Shown: piece by piece, positions 1,756-44,945 of the stretch
Layout: every line of letters begins with the position of its first letter
Position numbering within the stretch: the stretch's first letter is position 1
Assembly (NCBI GenBank): GCA_024653775.1
Contig: JANLHZ010000221.1
Span: 1 to 45,026, forward strand
DNA length: 45,026 bases
Reading direction: 5' to 3'
Origin: Planctomycetota bacterium
GTDB taxonomy: Bacteria; Planctomycetota; UBA8742; JACQVU01; JANLHZ01
The notes under the pieces: model-generated
The model's database searches: none
The model's input: the letters and a program-made list of their open reading frames with translations, nothing else
What the model was told of the DNA's origin: nothing
Made by a program: the position numbers and the translations under genes

Positions 1756-1920
1756 GCTACAAACATTTCACCCCTGACGGGGTTCATTTTATCGATGCTG
1801 CGATTGTGAAAAAATCTGATGAATCGTGGCACGGGCATCCTGCCCGTGGAACATCGGCGGCCGCCGATGCCACATTAAAAATCTGTGTTCATCGGTGTTA
1901 ATCTGTGGACAAAAAAAATG
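1756..1920. repeat. Dispersed intergenic repeat, copy 1 (filled site)
   Basis: From GCTACAAACATT through the ACCCC-TGA-CGGGGT hairpin to CTGTGGACAAAAAAAATG this stretch matches 44849-44945 almost base for base. The difference is a 58-bp palindromic segment plus a 9-bp duplication (1819-1885), present only here. It fills most of the 456-base gap between pyk and the next gene; no convincing gene lies in that gap. Confidence 0.85.
1819..1876. mobile_element. 58-bp palindromic element with 9-bp target duplication
   Basis: The segment lies between two copies of AAAAATCTG (1810-1818 and 1877-1885). The related repeat at 44849-44945 has one AAAAATCTG (44902-44910) and lacks the segment, so this is a filled/empty-site pair. 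Inside, CACGGGCA-TCC-TGCCCGTG (1830-1848) and CATCGGCGG/CCGCCGATG (1852-1869) are hairpins, enclosed by GTGGCA (1826-1831) and TGCCAC (1868-1873). It encodes nothing and would have to move in trans. The alternative is precise deletion from the 44.9-kb copy between the 9-bp repeats. Confidence 0.72.
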
Positions 1921-14522: not shown

Positions 14523-17500
14523 TCACTGCACCGCGCCGACGCTTGCCGCGGGGAAGCACCTCGTTGACGATCCGGTTACTACGCCGTCGAGGTCTTCGAG
14601 GCGGATTCGTCCGACGCCGCCGTCGCCTCCGATGTTTCCGTTGTTCGCGTCGAGGCCGTTTTTGCCGCCGTCCGCGGATAGCGCGTTCGTCGAGGCGGAA
14701 TCGATGACGATGTTTGCGGCCTGCATCCAGATTCCTCCGCCTGAGCCTCCTCCTCCTCCACCGCCGTCTAAGGTTCCGCTGGCGTTGCCTCCGTTGCCTC
14801 CGTCGCAGTCGATGGCGCCGGCAAATCCGATCACGATCGATCCGATGGAGGTGATGCGGATGCCTCCTCCGCCTGCTCCGCCACCGCCGCCGGTGGTGGC
14901 TAATTCGCCACCGCCACCGCCTCCGCCCGAACCCGCGCGAATTCCAGAGCCGAAAGTGGCGCTTCCGTTGGCGTTTCCGCCGTTCCCGCCACCGCCGCCT
15001 TCGCCGTCGGTTCCGTCGGACCCGAAGCCTCCGCCTCCGCCTCCGTCATCTTTCTGGTTCGCACCGTTGCCGCTACCGTTTCCGGAGCCGCCGCTGCCGT
15101 TGGAGTTGGATCCTCCATTGCCTCCGTTTCCGCCTCCCGCGACTCCGACACCCGCGGCCGGAGTGCCGCCGCTTTCACCGGCGAGGTCGAGGTATCCGTT
15201 TATGGTGACGGAAAGCGTGGCTCTGATGGTAAGTTCGCTGTTCCCGGTTGCGGTGAGGGTGTCGCCTTCCCGGAGTACGAACGAAGTGAAGTTCAGAGTG
15301 GAGACAGCGCTCGTGTCTACTGTGACGACGTACGGATCGCTTCCAGTCTTCGTAACGCCCGCGATCGCTCCGGAGACGTAGGTCGTCGAGTCGAATGCGC
15401 CGTTAGCGCCGGTGCCGCCGGAAATTGAAGTGTAGAAGAATCCACCCGTGAGTGTGAACGACTGCGCGCCGGGGTTCGTGACGACGACGTCGCGATACCC
15501 GAGAGTTCCGTTCGGGACTACAACGGACAATTCCACCGCTGAGACGTACGTCTCGTTCGCGTTGTTCCCTCCGATGGTTACGGCGGAGTTCGGGTGGAAG
15601 CCGTACCCGCGGATCGTGACGGTCTTGCCGCCTCCGGTGGAGTCGTAACTGTCGGTGATCGAAGTGATCGTGGGCGCGGGCGCGCTCGCGTCGTCGCGCA
15701 GGGTGATAGTCGATCCCGTCACGACGCCTAGCTGGGTCACTCTCGAACCGTCGGCGAAGGTCGCGCGGACCCCGACCGGGTTCGACGCGCCTATACCGAC
15801 GAGGGCAGACGCGGGCTGCTGTCCGAGCCATCCGCTTCCGCTGCCTGCGACCTTGTAGATCACGGTTCCGTCGGAGAAATCGCCGTTGTTGTCGAGATCG
15901 ACTTCGAGGAGCGCTCCGAGTGCGTGGACGTCGTTCGCGATGAAGGAGTCGGTTGCGTCTCCGTTGAAGTCGGTGATGAGATTGACCTTCACGAATCCGC
16001 CGCCGAAGCCTGGATTCTCGTAGAGAACGTCTGCGCTGCCCGCGCCGCACGCGACGTAGATATCGAGATCGCCGTCACCGTCGAAGTCAGCGAACGCTGA
16101 GCCTCCCGTGTGGGTCCGGAGTTGATTCATCCCGAGGTTCGAGTGCACCTCGGTGAAACTTTCATTCCCTTCGTTCAGATAGAGCAGCGCTTCCGCGTTG
16201 GCGTCGGTGCCGACGAAGAGATCGAGATCCCCGTCGTTATCGTAGTCGCCCCACGCCACGCCGCTGCACGCCGCGCCGGACTCGACTCCCGCTGCTGCGA
16301 GAACGAAGGTTCCGCCGACGTTCTTGTAAAGTCTGTTCGCGCCGGAACCCGTGCTGACGAAAATATCCATCCAGCCGTCGTTATTGAAATCCCCGACCGC
16401 CGCGGACCTCGAATCGACGGACCCGCTGATTCCGCTGAGACTCGCGACCTCGGTGAAACTCCCGGCGCCGTCGTTCTGGTAAAGAAGGTCTGCGGTGGTC
16501 GTCGCGACGAAGAGATCGACGTAACCGTCGCGGTTGAAATCGATCCACGCCGCGTCGCGGCTCGAAAGCGATGCGGTCATTCCCCTCGCAGCCGCGAAGT
16601 CGGTGAAGTTTCCCGCGCCGTCGTTTATGAAGAGATAGTCGACTCCGTCGCCCGCGAGATAGAAATCGAGGTCCCAGTCGCCGTCGAAGTCCGCCCACGC
16701 GGCTGCGTAACTGTCCTGCGCCTCTACGATGCCTTTCACGGTTGCGACGTTCACGAAGTTCGCGCTGCCGTCGTTTTCGTAAAGGAAATCCTGACCGTGG
16801 TTGCAGACGTAGATGTCGGTGTCGCCGTCGAGGTCGAAGTCGACGAAGACCGCGCCGTAGCCGTCTGCGCTGCCCGTGACGCCTCTGGACGCCGCGACCT
16901 CGGTGAACGTGGAGTTACCGTTATTTTGGTACAGCAGGTCCGCGGCGGACGTCGTGACCATCAGATCGATATCTCCGTCGAGGTCGTAATCAGCCCAGCT
17001 CGCGCCGCGGGTATCGAGGAGACTTCCGAGGCCCGCACCCGCGCTCTGATCGACGAAAACGAGGCCGTCGATGGTGAAGTCCGCGTTCGATTCGTCTGAC
17101 CCGGACTGACCCGCAAGATCAGTCGCGGTGACTCTGATCGTCACTGTGGACGACGTCAGGTTCGCTACCGGGTCCCACAGGTACGACCCGGAGTCCGAAA
17201 TTCCGCTTGCGAGCGCATTGACGTCCGCCGCGAAGCCGTCGGTCGAATACTCGATAGTTACGACGTCCGGCGCGGCTTCGGTCGTCGTCCAGCGAATCTG
17301 GTGAGCGCCGTCGGCGAGGAAGGTTTCGCCGCCGTTCGGGGAGGTCACGGTGACGATCGGTCCTGTGGAGTCGATAGTCAGCGTCGCGTCCGAAAGATCG
17401 CTTCCGCTTAGTCCCGCGCCGTCGGTCGCGGTCACGCGGATCCTTAACGTGCTGCTGTCGATGGACGGAATCGTAACGGCGTGCGAGCCGTCGTCCGCGG

Positions 17501-20500
17501 TCGACGCGGCGAGAGTGAAGAAAGTGAACCCGTCGGTGGTGTACGCGATGCTGACGACGTTTCTGTTCGCGTCGGAGACGTCCCAGGTAATCGTCTCGAC
17601 GTTTCCGCCGCCGAAGTACTCGCCGCCGTTTGGTGAGGTGACAGTCACCGCGGGCGCGGTGGAGTCAACCGCGGACCACGATCCGCCGTGATCGACCCCC
17701 GTGCGACCAACGAGGTCCGTCGCGGTTATCCGAATGCGGAAACTGCTTGTGTCGAGCGCGGGAACCGTCACGCTGTGGCTTCCGTCGTCCGCGGTTCCGG
17801 ACGCGAGTGAAACGTACACGAGACCGTCGGTTGTGTAATCGATGTCGACCGTGCTTTTGTTCGTCTCCGCGGACGCCCACGTGACGAGGAGGGCGGAACC
17901 GCCTGCTAGGATTTCGCCGCCGTTCGGGGAGATCACCGTGGCGATCGGATTCGTCGAATCGATCGTCGCGCCCGCGTTCGAAACGTCCGCGCCTGACCGG
18001 CTGGCGAGGTCGGCCGCGGCGACGCGAATCTCGAAGGTTGCGGAATCTATCGACGGCATAACGACCACCTCGCTACCGTCGTCCGGAGTGCTCGAAAGAA
18101 GGCTCGTGAACGCGGAGCCGTTCAGGGTGTATTCGATGCTCACGGTGCCTTTGTTCGTCTCTACGCAGTTCCAGGTGACGAGATATCCGGAGCCGCCTGA
18201 GATGAATTCGCCGCCGTTCGGGGATGTCACGGTTACGACTGGCGCGGTGGAATCTATCGAGCACGGGCCGTCCGAGAGGTCCGACGCGGAGAGTGCGGCT
18301 TTGTCCGTCGCGGTGATTCTGATCCTGAACGTCGCGAGATCGAGGCTCGGGAGCGTGAACGTGTGAGAGCCGTCGTCCGGAGTAGACGCAACCGTGGTGA
18401 AAGCGACTACGTCGGTGGTGTATTCGATCAGGACGGTGCCCTTGTTCGCGTCTACGCTTGCCCACGTGACTATGAGGGAGCTTCCGCCGCTCAGGTATTC
18501 ACCGCCGTTCGGGTAGAGCAGGTCGATGGTCGGCGCGATTGAATCGATAGTCGCAGGCAAACTCTGGATCACGTTCGACGATTTTCCCGCGAGGTCGAAG
18601 GCGGTGACGCGAATCCTGAAAGTCCCGGAGTTCAGGGACGGAACCGTGACGATCTGCGATCCGTCGTCCGGGGTTCCACTATCAAGGGAAGTGTAAACGA
18701 TCCCGTCGGTAGTGTAGTCGATGTTGACGGTTCCCTTGTTGTTTTCCGTGCTGTTCCAGACGACGTTGATCGCAGTCCCTCCAGCGATGAACTCTCCTCC
18801 AGCGGGAAAGTCCAGCGCCAGCACCGGCGCGGCGGAATCTATGGTCAGCGTCCCGTCCGACTGATCGCTTTCCGTGCGTCCGACCTTATCGGTCGCAGTG
18901 ACGCGAATCCGGAATGACGAAGATTCGATGAACGGAATCGTGACGGATTCGCTTCCGTCGTCAGAAGCGCCCGAGATCAGATTCGTGAAGACCGTGCCGT
19001 TCGTCGCAAAGTCGATGGAGACGGTGTTCTTATTCGTCTCGACGGAATTCCAGGTAACGCTGTAGATCGTCCCGCCTGCGATGTACTCCCCGCCGTTTGG
19101 GGAGGTCAAAGTCACGACGGGCGCGGTGGAATCGATCGTACAGCCGGAATCGCTCAGGTCGCTCGACGATCTGCCCGCCTTGTCGATCGCGGTGACTCTG
19201 ATTTTGAAGTTCGCGACATTCAGCGAAGGAATGGTCACGTTCTCGGTTCCGTCGTCGGGAGTCGAGGCTATCAGGTCGATGAAAGTGGCGTCGTCCGTCG
19301 TATACGCGATCTGGACGACGTCCTTGTTCGTCTCCGTGCTCGTCCACGCGACCTGAAACGTCGAACCGCCGCTGATGAATTCCCCTCCGGCGGGGGACGT
19401 GACGACGACGGAGGGATCCGCGGAGTCTACCGTCGAGGGAGAGTTGCCGATATCGCTGCTCGAAAGCCCCGCGAGGTCGATCGCGGTGACTCTAATCCTG
19501 AACGTAGACGAGTTGAGCGTCGGAACAGTCACGCTCTCAGCTCCATCGTCCGCGACGGAGCTTGCGAGGGACGCGTATGTCACTCCGTCGGTCGTGTACT
19601 CGATGTTCACCCGGTCCTTGTTCGTCTCGGTGCTCGTCCAGGCGACGCTCAGCGCGGTTCCGCCGCTGATGAATTCGCCGCCGTTCGGGGAGGTTACAAG
19701 TACCACCGGCGGGATCGAATCGACTGAGAGCGGAGAGTCCGACATATCCGAACTCGTGCGCCCGACCTTGTCGGAGACTGTCACCCGCAGGCGCGCCGCG
19801 GAAGTATTGAGCGCGGGAATCGTCACGAATTCGCTTCCGTCGTCCGGAACCGACGAGGCGAGACTTACGAACACCACGCCGTCGGTGGTGTAGTCGATCG
19901 ATGCAACGCTCTTGTTGGTCTCAGAGTTCGACCACGTAACTTCGAACGTAGCGCCGCCTTGAATGTATTCGCCGCCGCTGGGCGAGGTCAAAACGACCGC
20001 GGGGTTCGCGGAGTCGATTGTCAGATTCGCGTTGGAAACGCCCGCCCCCGTCCTTCCGGCTTTGTCGGTGACGGTGACGCGAATCCTGAACGTCGATACG
20101 TTGAGCGCGGGCATAGTGACGATCTCTGAGCCATCGTCCGCCGCGAACGCGATGACGCTGACGTAGTTCGTTCCGTCGACGGTGTAATCGATGCTCGCGA
20201 TGTCCTTGTTCGAGTCCGTGCTGGTCCACGCGATCGTATACGCCGCGCCGCCGCTCAGGAATTCGCCGCCATTCGGGGAGGTGACTATCACCGACGGATC
20301 GACGGAATCGAGCGTCGACGGCGAGTCGCTGATGTCTGCTGCGGAGTAGCCCGCGCTGTCGGTCGCGGTGACGCGAATTCGAAACGTGCTCACGTTCAGC
20401 GCGGGCAGAGTCACGGTTTCGCTTCCGTCGTCCGAAATCCCGCTGGCGAGATTCGTGTACGCGAGTCCGTCCGTGGTGTAGTCGATATTGACGACGTCTT

Positions 20501-23500
20501 TGTTATTGTCCGTGGTCGACCAGGTGACGATGAACGGATCGCCGCCGCGGAGGAACTCGCCACCAGCGGGCGAAGTCACGGTTATCGTCGGCGCCAATGA
20601 GTCGATCGTCAGCGCAGCGTCGGAAGTATCGCTTCCCGCGCGCCCGGCTTTGTCGGTGACGGTGACGCGAATCCGGAACGTGGAAACGTTTAGTGACGGA
20701 ATCGTCACGATCTCGGAGCCGTCGTCTTCGGTGGACGAAAGCAGGGTAGTAAACGTCACGCCGTTGGTTGTGTATTCGATTTTCGCGGCGTCCGGATTCG
20801 CATCGACGCTGGTCCAGGTGACGATAAAAGGATCGCCGCCCCGAAGGAACTCGCCGCCATTTGGAGAAGTCACGCTGACCGCGGGCGACGTCGAATCGAT
20901 GGCGAAATCCGCGTCCGAGAGGTCGCTCGCGCTTCTCCCGGCTTTGTCCGTCACAGTAACGCGAATCCTGACGGTTCCTGAATTCAGCGCAGGAAGCGTA
21001 ACCGATTCGCTTCCGTCGTCGTCGGTCGGCGCGAGCAGCGCCAGATACGTCGCGCCATCGGAAGAGTATTCGATGCTTGCGACGTCCCTGTTCGTCTCCG
21101 TCACGGTCCACAGGATCGTCGCGGTCGAACCGCCGCTCAGGAATTCGCCGCCTGCGGGATACGTCACGACGACCGCTGGATTCGCAGCGTCGATGGTAAG
21201 CGGACCGCCAGAGAGGTCCGAGCCGCTGAATCCCGCGTCGTCCGTAGCCGTGACGCGAATCCGGAAAGTGCTCGTGCCGAGCGACGGAACCGTGACGACC
21301 GTGGCACCGTCGTCCGGAGTTCCGGCAGATAGAAGGACGTAGCTGATTCCGTCGGTGGTGTAGTGGATATCTACAAGCCCTTTGTTGCTTTCGACGCTGG
21401 TCCACGTAACGTTCAGCGCGCCCGCGCCGCTTATAAATTCGCCTCCCGCGGGAGACGTCACCGTCACTACTGGCGGAGAGGAATCGACGACGATCCCGCT
21501 GTTCGACCCGCCAATCCCGCTGCGCATGGCTTTGTCAGTAGCGGTAACTCTGATCTTGAACGACGGGCTGTTGATCGAAGGAACGATCACCGTTTCTTCG
21601 CCGTCGTCGTCGATCGACGAGGCAAGACTTACGAACGCGACGCCGTTCGTGGTGTAATCGATCGATACCGCGTTCGCGTTCGCGTCAGCGGTGGACCACG
21701 TCACCGTCAGAGGATCGCCGCCTCGGAGGATTTCGCCTCCGCTTGGCGAAACAAGCGTGACGACCGGCGCGGTCGAGTCTACCGTGAACGCGCCCGCGGA
21801 AATATCGCTGTGCGTCTTCCCGACCTTGTCGGTCGCAGTCACCCTGATCGCCATCGACGAAGTGTTCAGCGCGGGAATCGTTACCGTCTCGCTTCCGTCG
21901 TCCGCAGTAGACGCGACAAGCGCAACGAAAGTGCTTCCGTCGACGGTGTATTCGATCGACGCGACGTCCCTGTTCGCCTCGGAGGTGGTCCATGTGACCT
22001 GAAAGGACGCGCCGCCACTGATGATCTCGCCGCCCGAAGGCGATGTGACGCTGACGACGGGCGGGGTCGAATCGACCGTCATCGTCTGATCCATAACGTC
22101 GACGCCGGAGTTTCCCGCGAGGTCCGTGGCGGTAACGCGAAGACGAAACGCGCTCGTGTTCAGCGCGGGAACCGTAATCGTATGCGCGCCGTCGTCGGGA
22201 GTTCCGGTTTGTAGCGCGATGTAGTTGACGCCGTTCGTGGTGTATTCGATGTCCACCGCGTTTTTGTTCGCTTCTGCGCTGTTCCAGGAAATCGCAAGAG
22301 TCTGCCCGCCCGCGATGAATCCTCCGCCCGAAGGCGACGTCAGCGTCACTACCGGCGCCGAATTGTCGATGCTGAAGGTTCCGGTTCCGCTCGCGGCGCC
22401 CGTCGCGGCGTCCGACGGAATCACGCGCACTTCGAGATCGCTCGCCTCCACGTTCGGCTGGTCGGACCCGCTCTTCCACACAAGAGAATACCCCGCCGCG
22501 GGAGCGAGTCCGATGGTCTGCCCGGAGACCGTCGCGGCTTTCCAGGCCCCGCCTGCCGAGCCGCCGCGGTATTGCACCTGAAGGTTGATGAAATGGCCGT
22601 CAACGTCGAAGAGATCGAACGCGACCAGAACGTCTCCGGACTGAAGACCCGCGATGCTCTCTACGCTAGCCGACGGGCTTGAGTTGAGCGCGCCCGCGGT
22701 GTTGTCGACGCTGAAGTTCGAGGTCTCCGCGTACTCGCCGCTCTGACTATCGGACGGACGAATGCGAAGTCTGACGTTGCCGGACGCTATCGGCCCGATC
22801 TGCGCCGAGTTCCAGACAAACGTGTGCGTAACGCCTGACGGACTCGACGCGAGATTCGCTACGCCGTCGCCTCCCGCGCCCATCGCGGCGAGGGAGTAGT
22901 TGACGCCTGCGTCGGTGGAATACTCCGCGAGAACCTGACAATCGTGGCTTTCCGCGTCGAAGAGTCTGTACGTCAGCGAGACGGTAAGCTGCTGCACGCC
23001 CGCGGGATCGTCGATCTCGATTTCCGGCGCGAGCGAATTGTCGATCGCGAACGCGTTCGTGGTTTTACTCTCGCCTATGCCGCCCGCGTCCGACGGCGTG
23101 AGTCTCAGGACAGCCGCGGTCACCTTGGAAGGAGCGTCCGCGAACGAGTCCCACACGAAGACGTGCGAGAATCCGCTCGAAGCGGTGCCGAGTCCGGACG
23201 CGCCTTCGCTCGCTGGATGAGTCGACTCCGTCGCGGCTCCGAACGTAACTCCGCCATCGATGGAAAACTCCACGAAGATCGAAGCCGGGTCCGCGTTCGA
23301 ATCCGAAAGCTCGTAGTAGAGGAAAACGTCTGCGCGCTGATCGTCCGCGATAGTTTCGAGAACCACGCCGGGAGCGCCATTGTTGTCTACGGTGAAATTC
23401 ATCGTGGAGTCTTCCGTGCCGACTCCCGAATTATCGGATGGAATGATTCGGACGCGGGCGTTTTCATTCCGGACGCCTCCGATGTCCGCCATAGAATTCC

Positions 23501-26135
23501 ACAGGAACGTATGCAGAATTCCCGCGGGACTGCTCGCGAGGTTCGCGATTCCGTCGCCTCCCGCAAACGCGGTCGCGGGGAAGAATGATGCGCCTCCGTC
23601 CATAGAGAACAGAACCTCGATGCTGACGCTGTGACTCTCGGAATCAGAGAGCAGATAGCCGATGCCGACGTTTCCGCTCGCTATGTCCGCGGGCTGCGTG
23701 ATCGACACCCCCGGCGCGGAGTTGTTGTTCACCGCGAATGAAACCGTCGTCGACGCAAGCCCCGCGCCGTTGACGTCCGACGGCGTGAATCTCATCTGCA
23801 CCGTCGGCCTCGATGAGTTACCGATGTCCGCGTTCGTGTCCCAGCGGAAAATGTAGGTTTCGCCGGGGAATATCGACGCGCTCGCGAGATTCTGGGTGCC
23901 GTCGCTTCCTTCGATCGACTCGGTCGCGTGCGTGAAAAAGTTCCCGCCGTCGATGGAGTATTCGACAAGCACATTCGCGGGATGGTTCTCGGAGTCGAAG
24001 AGCCTGAAAGTCACGGGCACGTCGCCGGTGAAGATTCCCTTCTGCGGAACGAGCGTCACCACCGGAGGTTTCCCGACCGCCGCGTAGTCGGTGTTGTCCA
24101 CCGCGAAAGGCGCGGTGATCGCGCTCTGACCGACAAGCGTGTCCTTCGGCGTGATTTTGAGCATCACGCTCGCCACCGGCTCGAGTCCGACGTCGAACGA
24201 ACTCCAGACGACCTCGTGCGATGTGCCCATAGGCGAAGCCTGCAAGCCGAGGATGCCGTCGCCGCCGGAACCGAAGCTCGCGAGAGTCCAGGTCACGCCA
24301 GAATCGGTGCTGTACTCGACCTGGAGAATGCTGACTGTGTCGCTTTCCATATCGATGAGGTTGTACGCGAGCGTTACGAATCCGCTCTGCGTGCCCGAAA
24401 TCTGCGCCGAAATGATCGCGATCGGCGCGGTCGAGTTGTCAACGGAGAACCCGCCCGTAATCACCGGATTTCCGGCAAGCTGCGATTTTTCACCCGCCTC
24501 GATCTCGACCGGCGTGAACCGCAGAAACACCTGCGAAACCCGGTTCGCGCCGAGGTCGCTTAAGCTGTCCCACACGAAAATTCCGAACTCGCCGGGGCCG
24601 ACGTTCGACGTTTCGAGATTCGAAACTCCGCTGCTGAGCGAATCTTCGGACTCCGTCGCGATGGCCCACTCCTCGTCCGCGATTCGATATTCGACGAGAA
24701 GATTCACGTAATCGCCCGCGGAATCGAAAAGCGCGTACGGAATCGTCTTGTCGTGGCGGACTGTCGACTCTCCGAGACTCGCGAGCAGCGCGATCCGCGG
24801 CGCTTCGTTGTTGTCGATCGTTATCGAGGTCGAAATTCGCGGCTCGCCCGTGTTTCTTGCGTCGCCCGGTGTCACTCGCAGCCTGACGCCGGCGAGATTC
24901 GCCTCGCCTACGTCCGCGACCGAGTTCCAGAGAAACGTGTGCGACGCTCCTTCCGGGGAAGTTTCGAGATTCATCGTGCCGCCACCGGCTTCGATTCGCC
25001 TTGTCGCGGGGCGGAAAATTTCGCCGTCGGTCGTGTACTCGACCAGGACCGACGCGGGATGGCTCATCGAGTCGCGCAGTGTGTAGCCAAGCAGCACGTC
25101 GCCCGAAGCCTGCATCGGAACCGCGTCCAGCGTTACGCTCGGCGGCGTGTTGTTCGTAACCGATATCGGCAGCGACGTCGCCGAAGTCCCTTGTTTCGAA
25201 TCGAACGGCGTGATCCGGAAAACCACGCCGTCGTACGTCGATTCGCCTAGGTCGGATATAGCGCTCCAGACGAACGTGTGCGCCACGCCAGCGGGACTCG
25301 TCGCAAGATCGAAGGTTCCTTCTGACAAAGCGCTTCCGGACTCCGTCATTGGATTTTCGGCTGAATTGCTGAAAATCTTGCCGCCGTCGAGAGAATACTG
25401 GACGACGATGTTCACCGGCTCCGAACTCGAATCCGAGACAACGAACCCGATGCTGACGTCGCCTGAAACCGTTGTCGACGGGAACGCGGAAATTGCCGCC
25501 GACGGGACGTCGTTGTTGTCTACAATAATCGGACCGTACTCGGCGCTGCCCTGCGAAACGTCGTCCGCGAAACGGATTCTCAGCAGGACCGAGATTCCCT
25601 GCGCGCCGGGAAGATCGACTCCGGACTGCCACGTGAAGCGATGCAAAGTTCCTCCGGATGAGCTTGTAAGATCGTTCGCGCCCTCCGATAGCGGTAATCC
25701 GGGAAGCTCCGTCATTCCGTCGAATGTCGTTCCGGTGGTTGAATATTCGAATGCGAGATTTCGCGTCGCGGAATCCGGATCGCTCAGAGTGTATGCGATG
25801 TGTATGTCGCCGCTGTGGCTCGAAGCTCCCGGCGTCGCTCCGCTGATCACTGTGATAAAACGAACCTGCGGAGCCTGATTCTGATTTCCCGTCTGCGACT
25901 CCGGCGAAGTCGCTTCCGGATCATCGATACCAGGCGCCCCCGGTGAACCGGAACCGACCTCCGGATTGTTCGTTTTATCGTCGCCTTCGAGAGTCGACGT
26001 CGCGATCGCCTGCGCGGGAGAGGTCCGCTTTTTTTTCCCGGACAAGGCTTCGATTCCAAGGTACGTCGCGATGAAACATCCGGAGCACTCAACCGATATT
26101 GCCAGCAAAATTATGATAGTTATATATTTTTTCAT
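14523..26135 (-). CDS. Giant multi-repeat surface protein (about 3,870 aa)
   Basis: Probably an exported cell-surface protein for adhesion or matrix formation. The start is ATG 26135, with GGAGAAAGG upstream; a GTG at 26174 is less likely. It begins MKKYITIIILLAISVECSGC, a signal with a weak lipobox. Then come ten Ig-like repeats of about 118 residues (25.89-22.35 kb; SDSESHP...VEYSxDGG...SSPxGxxHTFVWNS...FxVDNN), and eighteen repeats of about 97 residues like Kre9/KNH units (22.35-17.08 kb; TSPNGGEFxSGG...TxETNK...DYTTDG...PDDGS...FRIRVTATD). Seven FG-GAP/VCBS repeats with DxDxDGDxD calcium-type loops follow (about 17.07-15.98 kb), then an UnbV/ASPIC-like domain, a TIG/IPT domain (15.67-15.42 kb), and a glycine-rich tail ending CFPAASVGAVQ. 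No sortase, PEP-CTERM or type IX signal is visible. It lies 57 bases after the pseudo-caspase gene, same strand. Confidence 0.93.
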   Translation of the reverse strand: MKKYITIIILLAISVECSGCFIATYLGIEALSGKKKRTSPAQAIATSTLEGDDKTNNPEVGSGSPGAPGIDDPEATSPESQTGNQNQAPQVRFITVISGATPGASSHSGDIHIAYTLSDPDSATRNLAFEYSTTGTTFDGMTELPGLPLSEGANDLTSSSGGTLHRFTWQSGVDLPGAQGISVLLRIRFADDVSQGSAEYGPIIVDNNDVPSAAISAFPSTTVSGDVSIGFVVSDSSSEPVNIVVQYSLDGGKIFSNSAENPMTESGSALSEGTFDLATSPAGVAHTFVWSAISDLGESTYDGVVFRITPFDSKQGTSATSLPISVTNNTPPSVTLDAVPMQASGDVLLGYTLRDSMSHPASVLVEYTTDGEIFRPATRRIEAGGGTMNLETSPEGASHTFLWNSVADVGEANLAGVRLRVTPGDARNTGEPRISTSITIDNNEAPRIALLASLGESTVRHDKTIPYALFDSAGDYVNLLVEYRIADEEWAIATESEDSLSSGVSNLETSNVGPGEFGIFVWDSLSDLGANRVSQVFLRFTPVEIEAGEKSQLAGNPVITGGFSVDNSTAPIAIISAQISGTQSGFVTLAYNLIDMESDTVSILQVEYSTDSGVTWTLASFGSGGDGILGLQASPMGTSHEVVWSSFDVGLEPVASVMLKITPKDTLVGQSAITAPFAVDNTDYAAVGKPPVVTLVPQKGIFTGDVPVTFRLFDSENHPANVLVEYSIDGGNFFTHATESIEGSDGTQNLASASIFPGETYIFRWDTNADIGNSSRPTVQMRFTPSDVNGAGLASTTVSFAVNNNSAPGVSITQPADIASGNVGIGYLLSDSESHSVSIEVLFSMDGGASFFPATAFAGGDGIANLASSPAGILHTFLWNSMADIGGVRNENARVRIIPSDNSGVGTEDSTMNFTVDNNGAPGVVLETIADDQRADVFLYYELSDSNADPASIFVEFSIDGGVTFGAATESTHPASEGASGLGTASSGFSHVFVWDSFADAPSKVTAAVLRLTPSDAGGIGESKTTNAFAIDNSLAPEIEIDDPAGVQQLTVSLTYRLFDAESHDCQVLAEYSTDAGVNYSLAAMGAGGDGVANLASSPSGVTHTFVWNSAQIGPIASGNVRLRIRPSDSQSGEYAETSNFSVDNTAGALNSSPSASVESIAGLQSGDVLVAFDLFDVDGHFINLQVQYRGGSAGGAWKAATVSGQTIGLAPAAGYSLVWKSGSDQPNVEASDLEVRVIPSDAATGAASGTGTFSIDNSAPVVTLTSPSGGGFIAGGQTLAISWNSAEANKNAVDIEYTTNGVNYIALQTGTPDDGAHTITVPALNTSAFRLRVTATDLAGNSGVDVMDQTMTVDSTPPVVSVTSPSGGEIISGGASFQVTWTTSEANRDVASIEYTVDGSTFVALVASTADDGSETVTIPALNTSSMAIRVTATDKVGKTHSDISAGAFTVDSTAPVVTLVSPSGGEILRGGDPLTVTWSTADANANAVSIDYTTNGVAFVSLASSIDDDGEETVIVPSINSPSFKIRVTATDKAMRSGIGGSNSGIVVDSSPPVVTVTSPAGGEFISGAGALNVTWTSVESNKGLVDIHYTTDGISYVLLSAGTPDDGATVVTVPSLGTSTFRIRVTATDDAGFSGSDLSGGPLTIDAANPAVVVTYPAGGEFLSGGSTATILWTVTETNRDVASIEYSSDGATYLALLAPTDDDGSESVTLPALNSGTVRIRVTVTDKAGRSASDLSDADFAIDSTSPAVSVTSPNGGEFLRGGDPFIVTWTSVDANPDAAKIEYTTNGVTFTTLLSSTEDDGSEIVTIPSLNVSTFRIRVTVTDKAGRAGSDTSDAALTIDSLAPTITVTSPAGGEFLRGGDPFIVTWSTTDNNKDVVNIDYTTDGLAYTNLASGISDDGSETVTLPALNVSTFRIRVTATDSAGYSAADISDSPSTLDSVDPSVIVTSPNGGEFLSGGAAYTIAWTSTDSNKDIASIDYTVDGTNYVSVIAFAADDGSEIVTMPALNVSTFRIRVTVTDKAGRTGAGVSNANLTIDSANPAVVLTSPSGGEYIQGGATFEVTWSNSETNKSVASIDYTTDGVVFVSLASSVPDDGSEFVTIPALNTSAARLRVTVSDKVGRTSSDMSDSPLSVDSIPPVVLVTSPNGGEFISGGTALSVAWTSTETNKDRVNIEYTTDGVTYASLASSVADDGAESVTVPTLNSSTFRIRVTAIDLAGLSSSDIGNSPSTVDSADPSVVVTSPAGGEFISGGSTFQVAWTSTETNKDVVQIAYTTDDATFIDLIASTPDDGTENVTIPSLNVANFKIRVTAIDKAGRSSSDLSDSGCTIDSTAPVVTLTSPNGGEYIAGGTIYSVTWNSVETNKNTVSIDFATNGTVFTNLISGASDDGSESVTIPFIESSSFRIRVTATDKVGRTESDQSDGTLTIDSAAPVLALDFPAGGEFIAGGTAINVVWNSTENNKGTVNIDYTTDGIVYTSLDSGTPDDGSQIVTVPSLNSGTFRIRVTAFDLAGKSSNVIQSLPATIDSIAPTIDLLYPNGGEYLSGGSSLIVTWASVDANKGTVLIEYTTDVVAFTTVASTPDDGSHTFTLPSLDLATFRIRITATDKAALSASDLSDGPCSIDSTAPVVTVTSPNGGEFISGGSGYLVTWNCVETNKGTVSIEYTLNGSAFTSLLSSTPDDGSEVVVMPSIDSATFEIRVAAADLASRSGADVSNAGATIDSTNPIATVISPNGGEILAGGSALLVTWASAETNKSTVDIDYTTDGLVYVSLASGTADDGSHSVTVPALDTSSFRIRITATDLVGRTGVDHGGSWSAVDSTAPAVTVTSPNGGEYFGGGNVETITWDVSDANRNVVSIAYTTDGFTFFTLAASTADDGSHAVTIPSIDSSTLRIRVTATDGAGLSGSDLSDATLTIDSTGPIVTVTSPNGGETFLADGAHQIRWTTTEAAPDVVTIEYSTDGFAADVNALASGISDSGSYLWDPVANLTSSTVTIRVTATDLAGQSGSDESNADFTIDGLVFVDQSAGAGLGSLLDTRGASWADYDLDGDIDLMVTTSAADLLYQNNGNSTFTEVAASRGVTGSADGYGAVFVDFDLDGDTDIYVCNHGQDFLYENDGSANFVNVATVKGIVEAQDSYAAAWADFDGDWDLDFYLAGDGVDYLFINDGAGNFTDFAAARGMTASLSSRDAAWIDFNRDGYVDLFVATTTADLLYQNDGAGSFTEVASLSGISGSVDSRSAAVGDFNNDGWMDIFVSTGSGANRLYKNVGGTFVLAAAGVESGAACSGVAWGDYDNDGDLDLFVGTDANAEALLYLNEGNESFTEVHSNLGMNQLRTHTGGSAFADFDGDGDLDIYVACGAGSADVLYENPGFGGGFVKVNLITDFNGDATDSFIANDVHALGALLEVDLDNNGDFSDGTVIYKVAGSGSGWLGQQPASALVGIGASNPVGVRATFADGSRVTQLGVVTGSTITLRDDASAPAPTITSITDSYDSTGGGKTVTIRGYGFHPNSAVTIGGNNANETYVSAVELSVVVPNGTLGYRDVVVTNPGAQSFTLTGGFFYTSISGGTGANGAFDSTTYVSGAIAGVTKTGSDPYVVTVDTSAVSTLNFTSFVLREGDTLTATGNSELTIRATLSVTINGYLDLAGESGGTPAAGVGVAGGGNGGNGGSNSNGSGGSGNGSGNGANQKDDGGGGGGFGSDGTDGEGGGGGNGGNANGSATFGSGIRAGSGGGGGGGELATTGGGGGAGGGGIRITSIGSIVIGFAGAIDCDGGNGGNASGTLDGGGGGGGSGGGIWMQAANIVIDSASTNALSADGGKNGLDANNGNIGGDGGVGRIRLEDLDGVVTGSSTRCFPAASVGAVQ
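17080..22360 (-). repeat. Eighteen tandem coding repeats of about 291 bp
   Basis: Block B of the giant gene: eighteen units of about 97 codons, each starting PxVxVTSPxGGE and ending in a TATDxAGxSxSDxSD-like stretch followed by xDSxxP. Units are close enough in DNA (the codons for TSTETNKD and FRIRVT recur with few changes) that unequal recombination could change their number. Confidence 0.88.
22360..25890 (-). repeat. Ten tandem coding repeats of about 353 bp
   Basis: Block A of the giant gene: ten units of about 118 codons with the core SLDGGxxFxxA, LASSPxGxxHTFVWNS, LRxxPSDxxG and xVDNN. They are more divergent than block B and form a distinct Ig-like type. Confidence 0.85.
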
Positions 26136-26192
26136 CGTTTCTGCCTTTCTCCAGCCTGAAAGACGATCCTTCACAAAAGTGAATATTCGTCG

Positions 26193-28002: not shown

Positions 28003-28072
28003 TATCGGTTCGGCGAACCATTTTGTTTGGAACGTTTCAGGCGTTTCCTTTGCGTGGCACAGTCATCTTGAA
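28003..28072. repeat. 70-bp repeat, copy 1 (inverted relative to 41850-41919)
   Basis: The reverse complement of this stretch matches 41850-41919 at most positions (core TTTGGAACGTTTCAGGCG and TTTCCTTTGCGTGGCAC). Weaker similarity continues on both sides, and each copy has a GATTCAAATTTGAAT palindrome on the same relative side, so the full repeat is probably 200 bases or more. Confidence 0.8.
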
Positions 28073-28147
28073 AGTGAAATCGCGAACGAGACGTTTGTAT
28101 CGCCTGATTAAGCGAACTGACACAGCAAAAATGTCCTTTTGACATTT

Positions 28148-28204
28148 AATATTGCCACATACGATTCAAATTTGAATTAAATTTGAATCATACGCGGCAA
28201 TATT
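28148..28204. repeat. 57-bp AT-rich palindrome, copy 1
   Basis: AATATTGCC (28148-28156) pairs with GGCAATATT (28196-28204), and the inner GATTCAAATTT/AAATTTGAATC (28163-28189) pairs too. Shorter copies lie at 33584-33620 and 41734-41760. It has no T-run and lies between divergent promoter and 3' regions. It is either a mobile palindrome or a regulator site. Confidence 0.75.
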
Positions 28205-33324: not shown

Positions 33325-33583
33325 TATTTCCACTTGAGGCTGTGCGATAGAAAAGAACTCATGTCTCACGCAGATTTGAAGATACGGAGATCGCCGACCG
33401 TTTCGGAACATCGCAGCGCTCGTGCGCGGCACTCCAAAGCGGCAGCCTCCGCCACCTCGAAGTTATTAAAGGAATTGTGGACTTAAAACAGATATTCCCC
33501 GGATTCGGGCTATCTTCGGTATCCCATAAGCTTCGAAGAAGCTTCAAAGCTCTTAGAATACATTTATAAATAAAAAATTGCTT

Positions 33584-33620
33584 GCTACGATTCAAATTTG
33601 AAATTAATTTGAATCATAGC
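33584..33620. repeat. AT-rich palindrome, copy 2, upstream of the HTH gene
   Basis: GCTACGATTCAAATT (33584-33598) pairs with AATTTGAATCATAGC (33606-33620) with one mismatch. It lies 50 bases before the HTH gene and shares its core with 28163-28189 and 41734-41760, so it could be this regulator's operator. Confidence 0.6.
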
Positions 33621-41557: not shown

Positions 41558-41719
41558 ATGTGGCAACTATCTGAAGATGAGGTTCTCATTTTTCGGAGCC
41601 TTCAGGCGAGACATCCGAAGGGTCTTGCTCTGACGATGATGGAAGTATTCCCAGAAACCGAGGTAGTTTCCAATCGGCCGAGTGCCAAGTTTAGACTGTA
41701 TTATACATATAATAGTTAA
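41558..41719 (+). CDS. Possible 53-residue small gene
   Basis: An ATG frame of 53 codons (MWQLSEDEVLIFRSLQARHP... ending FRLYYTYNS) with stop TAA at 41717. No ribosome site beyond a weak GAG, and no recognised family; the composition is protein-like. It could be a genuine small gene, a fragment, or chance. Confidence 0.25.
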   Translation: MWQLSEDEVLIFRSLQARHPKGLALTMMEVFPETEVVSNRPSAKFRLYYTYNS

Positions 41720-41733
41720 ATATTGCTGATATA

Positions 41734-41760
41734 GATTCAAATTTGAATAAAATTTGAAAT
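41734..41760. repeat. AT-rich palindrome, copy 3
   Basis: GATTCAAATTTGAATAAAATTTGAAAT shares its core with 28163-28189 and 33589-33616, but the right arm is partly broken. It lies about 90 bases before the 70-bp repeat copy at 41850-41919. Confidence 0.65.
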
Positions 41761-41849
41761 GTAGGCCGCCATAATAACGAGCACAACGTCATCTTTGTGG
41801 TACAAGTTCAGTTAGCACGTAACTTGAACGTATCATCGGCGACTTCACG

Positions 41850-41919
41850 GTCAAGATGACCGTGCCACGCAAAGGAAACGCCTGAAACGTTCCAAACAAC
41901 GTGGTTCACCGAGCCGATA
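41850..41919. repeat. 70-bp repeat, copy 2 (inverted relative to 28003-28072)
   Basis: Reverse complement of 28003-28072 at most positions; shared core CGCAAAGGAAACGCCTGAAA and CGTTCCAAACAA. Together with the palindrome and small gene candidate it occupies much of the 900-base gap 41167-42074. Confidence 0.8.
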
Positions 41920-44848: not shown

Positions 44849-44945
44849 GCTACAAACATTCCACCCCTGACAGGTTCATTTTATCGATGCTGCGATTGTG
44901 AAAAAATCTGTGTCAATCGGTGTTAAACTGTGGACAAAAAAAATG
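44849..44945. repeat. Dispersed intergenic repeat, copy 2 (empty site)
   Basis: Matches 1756-1920 without the 58-bp palindromic segment; a single AAAAATCTG (44902-44910) marks the insertion point. One hairpin half is changed (ACCCC-TGACAGGT). Confidence 0.85.

Follow-up and report, generated by a model that had tools for sequence, protein, structure and literature searches.

A probable REPIN at the fixed edge of a dispersed repeat, and RAYT genes in frame within host genes, in a Planctomycetota genome and its relatives

The window, that is, the whole 45,026-nucleotide stretch of Planctomycetota DNA analyzed here, is one contig (C152) of a 5.4-Mb genome assembled in 331 contigs. A pyruvate kinase gene (55–1518) and an open reading frame on the opposite strand (1975–2577) enclose a host repeat with a 58-bp insert at 1819–1876, which lies between one copy of AAAAATCTG at 1810–1818 and another at 1877–1885 (both plus strand). 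The left part of the host repeat (1756–1818, plus strand) is a module composed of GCTACAAACATTTCACCCCTGACGGGGTT and TTTATCGATGCTGCGATTGTGAAAAAATCTG, found in 14 copies in the genome. To the right of the insert begins repeat B (AAAAATCTGTGTNAATCGGTGTTAATCTGTGGACAAAAAAATG; 1877–1920, plus strand; 31 copies), whose first 9 bases are the right-hand AAAAATCTG. A second host repeat at 44849–44945 (plus strand) has a single AAAAATCTG at 44902–44910 and no insert. These coordinates confirmed the original prediction of a two-hairpin segment between paired AAAAATCTG copies, matched by an insert-free site at 44.9 kb; the host repeats around the two sites, described there as otherwise equal, are instead ~93–95% identical. 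One more AAAAATCTG, on the minus strand at 1531–1539, is unrelated.

Within the insert, the junction ATGAATC (1819–1825, plus strand), the same in every filled composite copy, is followed by the putative mobile unit, a 48-bp REPIN-type doublet of the form GTGG...CCAC (1826–1873, plus strand), and by the junction ATT (1874–1876, plus strand). The doublet comprises REP 1, a GTGG foot with the hairpin CACGGGCA-TCC-TGCCCGTG (1826–1848, plus strand); the spacer GAA (1849–1851); and the inverted REP 2, which on the minus strand reads as a GTGG foot with the hairpin CATCGGCG/CGCCGATG (1852–1873). Folded as single-stranded DNA, the insert is predicted to form two hairpins closed by GTGGC/GCCAC at −19.1 kcal/mol (z = −3.8), a value that 0 of 200 shuffled sequences equaled. 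The window contains a second GTGG REP, GTGGCACGGTCATCTTGACCGTG (41846–41868, minus strand), inside a different composite repeat at 41827–41919; this composite has an inverted copy at 28003–28095, where the REP has decayed. Another palindromic family of the window is the AT-rich repeat CGATTCAAATTTGAATTAAATTTGAATCATA, with three copies (28160–28204, 33574–33618, and 41708–41763), and in a 3883-amino acid open reading frame at 14523–26174, units of 294 bp are repeated in tandem and Ig-like/FG-GAP domains occur.

We searched the genome for the insert with its flank, as the original prediction had proposed, and obtained 43 matches to the whole or part of this sequence, which occurs over its full length in six other places. 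Five copies of the host repeat are filled at the same base in full context (the window, C204, C300, C52, and C63) and two in partial or truncated context (C56 and C323), and nine copies are empty. Because both the filled and the empty state recur at the same point in the genome, the resemblance is not due to chance, and the insertion is real. Genome-wide, 301 GTGGCA hairpin sites were found with up to 2 mismatches, and none with the reversed control. In a sample of ~781 kb there were 109 hairpins with a GTGGCA foot versus 1–4 for six other 6-mer feet; the contigs of this sample were picked partly for known REPs, and the whole-genome count of 301 is free of such choice. The sample holds 39 inverted doublets with their feet outward and spacers mostly of 3–4 nt, together with 31 single REPs. 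For orthologous empty sites, the relatives searched included no other genome of the same family, and two contig scans, one with the neighbor protein and one with the exact REPIN pattern, gave no match.

The insert is very probably a REPIN, and the palindromic elements of this genome very probably constitute a dispersed, non-autonomous, and mobile family. REPINs were described in Pseudomonas fluorescens SBW25 as REP doublets that form a hairpin and are moved by a RAYT (PMC3116915). The present elements share with them a dominant unit of two inverted REPs that are separated by a short spacer and have their feet on the outside, the high dispersed copy number (301 REPs in 5.4 Mb), and the linkage to RAYT genes in relatives. 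They differ in that the GTAG foot of SBW25 is here GTGG, a GTAG-like tetranucleotide preceding the hairpin as in other REPs; in that the two hairpins are unlike in sequence; and in that the doublets, mostly only 48–52 bp, often lie within mosaic composites. A closer likeness in the foot is offered by the GTAG-20 REP family of Opitutus terrae, another organism, in which the foot has mutated to GTGG and many copies are intragenic (PMC3733652); we draw this parallel on foot and location. The tetranucleotide foot of TnpA-REP REPtrons acts as a guide, and in one of these systems the cleavage site shifted to CC when GTAG was replaced by GTGG (PMC8266576); the foot resembles that of our element, for which a similar cleavage would be an analogy. 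The palindromes of this lineage thus very probably represent a further example of the known REPIN-RAYT kind.

At least 10 REPINs lie within long open frames (L012, L022, L024, L026, L030, L177, L236, L243, L257, and L261). A single Pfam domain match spans the REPIN in an AcrB-type transporter (L026) and a flavin oxidoreductase (L030), and the expected host domains occur in the same frame on both sides of it in a lipoyl acyltransferase (L012), an M61-PDZ peptidase (L177), and L257, a fused acyl-CoA mutase gene with two REPINs. When L257 was set against a fused mutase of solved structure, the linkers proved variable, so that exact insertion sizes could not be read from it. The peptides encoded by in-frame REPINs resemble GTGILPV...HGQDARAT. 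In-frame REPs are known in O. terrae and Rickettsia, and the palindromic elements of Rickettsia (RPE), to judge from their description, are similarly short in-frame palindromes in protein genes (PMC3733652).

Genes of the Y1_Tnp type are frequent in the class, and in seven regions from class relatives (L135, L136, L141, L149, L163, L168, and L174) a RAYT of one group has GTGGCAY REPs at its borders, in most cases at both and frequently in the form of complete doublets. The aligned proteins have invariant NHVH and Y...NP motifs; this alignment does not include the RAYT of L174, and the sequence read for that gene is preceded by a stop codon. Since the REPs bordering these genes match those of this genome in their GTGG foot, its REPINs could plausibly be mobile in trans, most likely by the action of a RAYT-type transposase. 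The genome itself has one strong member of the group, with both motifs kept (C288:15173–15697; E = 3e-53 with profile A1), and three further matches to the profile that are weaker and partial. The REPs flanking the C288 gene have a GGGACC foot rather than GTGG, so that the enzyme-substrate pair for the GTGG REPINs in this genome is a candidate pair, which counts against our explanation. A different Y1 gene of the genome (L063) has one GTGG REP downstream. The idea that the palindromes are mobile in trans is accordingly supported by the dispersed REPIN family and by the GTGG-bounded RAYTs of relatives, and the transposase genes found with matching ends are these Y1 genes of the relatives. An IS200-like TnpA gene on C300 (L061 in this genome, G000) is closely followed by GGGATGTTTGTAGC palindromes and preceded by a TACAAACATATCACCCC module; given this preceding module, the left module of the host repeat may be an end motif of the L061 transposase.

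The locus was originally read as the product of transposition with a 9-bp target duplication, which would require a cut-and-paste (DDE) transposase or another staggered-cutting enzyme to have inserted the element into AAAAATCTG. Where composite copies retain the two edges, the direct repeats are exact, and a single AAAAATCTG is present in at least nine insert-free copies, as such an event would predict. We looked for duplications at 46 other REPINs outside the composite, with flanks taken from a sample of genome stretches. No duplication of at least 4 bp adjoins any of the 46, and words common to their 20-bp flanks are no commoner than with shuffled pairings; some surplus of common words appears at the 30-bp range, as is expected since the flanks are themselves repeats. 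The constant 9-bp duplication at independent copies that would characterize an IS4/Tn5-like MITE is therefore absent from this set (0 of 46), and insertion without duplication is what a REPIN/RAYT system leads one to expect. Copies without flanking duplications, which the original prediction had named as grounds for its own refutation, are thus present in this genome. IS200/IS605-like enzymes are expected to insert without a target duplication. The reading frames of intragenic REPINs add little: 10 of 12 in-frame REPINs have a length of 1 mod 3, so that a gain of length + 9 would break the frame, but this weighs only weakly against a duplication since a gain of length + 0 would do the same. 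Most intragenic REPINs need a net gain of length + 2 to stay in frame, and 0 and 9 bp are equal mod 3.

The right-hand AAAAATCTG has another source. All through the genome, the 31 copies of B begin with AAAAATCTG as a constant 5′ edge, whether the left partner is the X module, a REPIN (with three different junctions), a GCAGGCG palindrome, a CGATCTTT module, or another sequence. Because this fixed edge follows unrelated partners, the right AAAAATCTG would be present even if no target had been duplicated, and at three loci (L007, L008, and L010) REPINs adjoin AAAAATCTG with no left copy. The left AAAAATCTG is special to the composite. Moreover, in the six copies with a AAAAATCTG on either side, found beside at least nine empty ones, the ATGAATC and ATT junctions are identical; these common junctions indicate descent from one arrangement, and the filled copies count as one event. 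The differing outer partner on C56 shows that the composite moves as a block. At L009, whose flanks are unrelated, ATGAATC is also present and CTGATGAATC precedes the REPIN, which suggests that a join at CTG could produce the composite without a duplication; from L009 and L007, ATGAATC may be part of the mobile unit. At two other loci (L050 and L058), an unrelated palindrome (of the GCAGGCGAGGACGCCTGC, or GCAGGCG, type) lies between two copies of AAAAAATCTG in B. A true 9–10-bp duplication at this site of B would also predict such a pattern, and a real duplication there accordingly has a modest probability. The single event behind the composite could have been either a 9-bp duplication or a recombination between repeats. 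As an account of the insert as a whole, the target duplication put forward by the original prediction is unlikely.

Taken together, we favor as the probable explanation that a REPIN was moved by a RAYT without a conserved duplication, became joined to the edge of B, and then spread as part of a composite. The insert would be a REPIN-type miniature element consisting of an inverted pair of GTGG-footed REP hairpins. A RAYT (TnpA-REP, a Y1/HUH transposase) would move it in trans as single-stranded DNA, leaving no conserved target duplication, and the element would have become joined to B at its 5′ edge (AAAAATCTG...). A single junction of this REPIN-B type, preceded by a second AAAAATCTG, would then have spread as a composite when the mosaic repeats between genes recombined with or converted one another. 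The sequences show the anatomy and copy number of the element, the class-wide linkage to RAYTs, the lack of a general target duplication, and the common junctions of the composite; catalysis by the RAYT, the single-strand pathway, and spreading by recombination are inferred from them. A search for what the composite would become on loss of the REPIN alone, AAAATCTGATGAATC(N)AAAAATCTG, found no such form, which counts against this explanation.

Alternatively, the 44.9-kb copy, along with others, could have lost the insert if slippage or deletion took place from one 9-bp repeat to the other, a process that the hairpins would assist. A strong hairpin enclosed by direct repeats is a classical substrate for deletion, and the insert is surrounded in just this way. 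In a tree of the host-repeat flanks, the filled and empty copies are mixed, the filled L004 grouping with the empty L032 at a support of 0.99. This mixing fits occasional loss, but conversion between repeats explains it equally. Insert-free copies of B are also the commoner ones and are found, too, behind left partners in which the insert was never present (the CGATCTTT class); a loss at 44.9 kb is hence not needed as an explanation, and we judge it improbable. Finally, the 44.9-kb copy is 81 bp from the contig end in an assembly of 331 contigs, but both states are also seen far from the ends of other contigs, next to unrelated sequences, which rules out an assembly artifact or chance resemblance as anything beyond the slightest probability.

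RAYTs themselves also occur in frame inside host genes. The RAYT-type Y1 gene on C288 (L064/L275, G000:C288:15173–15697) lies in frame in purH between the two catalytic domains and is flanked by GGGACCGCGGACGTCC palindromes; this purH is the only one in the genome (PF01808), and its 781-amino acid reading frame is open throughout. In three relatives, RAYTs are in frame in alaS just before the ELCGGTHV motif (L279, L280, and L288 in G004, G005, and G017, respectively; identified by Pfam in the first two and by sequence alone in G017), and that of L279 is bounded by inverted GTGG REPs. In ten genomes from several genera, a fabZ-like gene contains an in-frame RAYT, always at one and the same site (L282–L287, L289–L291, and L299), and all 10 also have an intact FabA/FabZ-type gene. 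G009, of the same genus as G004, has an uninterrupted fabZ-like orthologue (L294) with a small palindrome alone at the site. A limited literature search returned no description of in-frame RAYTs within genes, which is no proof of novelty.

In-frame life inside genes thus appears as an unusual habit of this class. We tentatively suggest that its RAYT-REPIN modules are adapted to such a life, with the transposase made inside an essential enzyme as one of its domains and protected from loss much like an intein, a possibility that we rate below even chances. For the interpretation of similar loci, the window indicates that even where a filled and an empty site match perfectly and a 9-bp repeat is present, no target duplication need have occurred if the target is itself one of many dispersed repeats whose edge is fixed. 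The in-frame RAYTs in purH, alaS, and the fabZ-like gene bear on the question of why RAYTs persist for so long. If the suggested adaptation is true, an internal domain of PurH in this genome, as of AlaRS or the FabZ-like protein in relatives, would serve the trans-mobile REPINs of the window genome.
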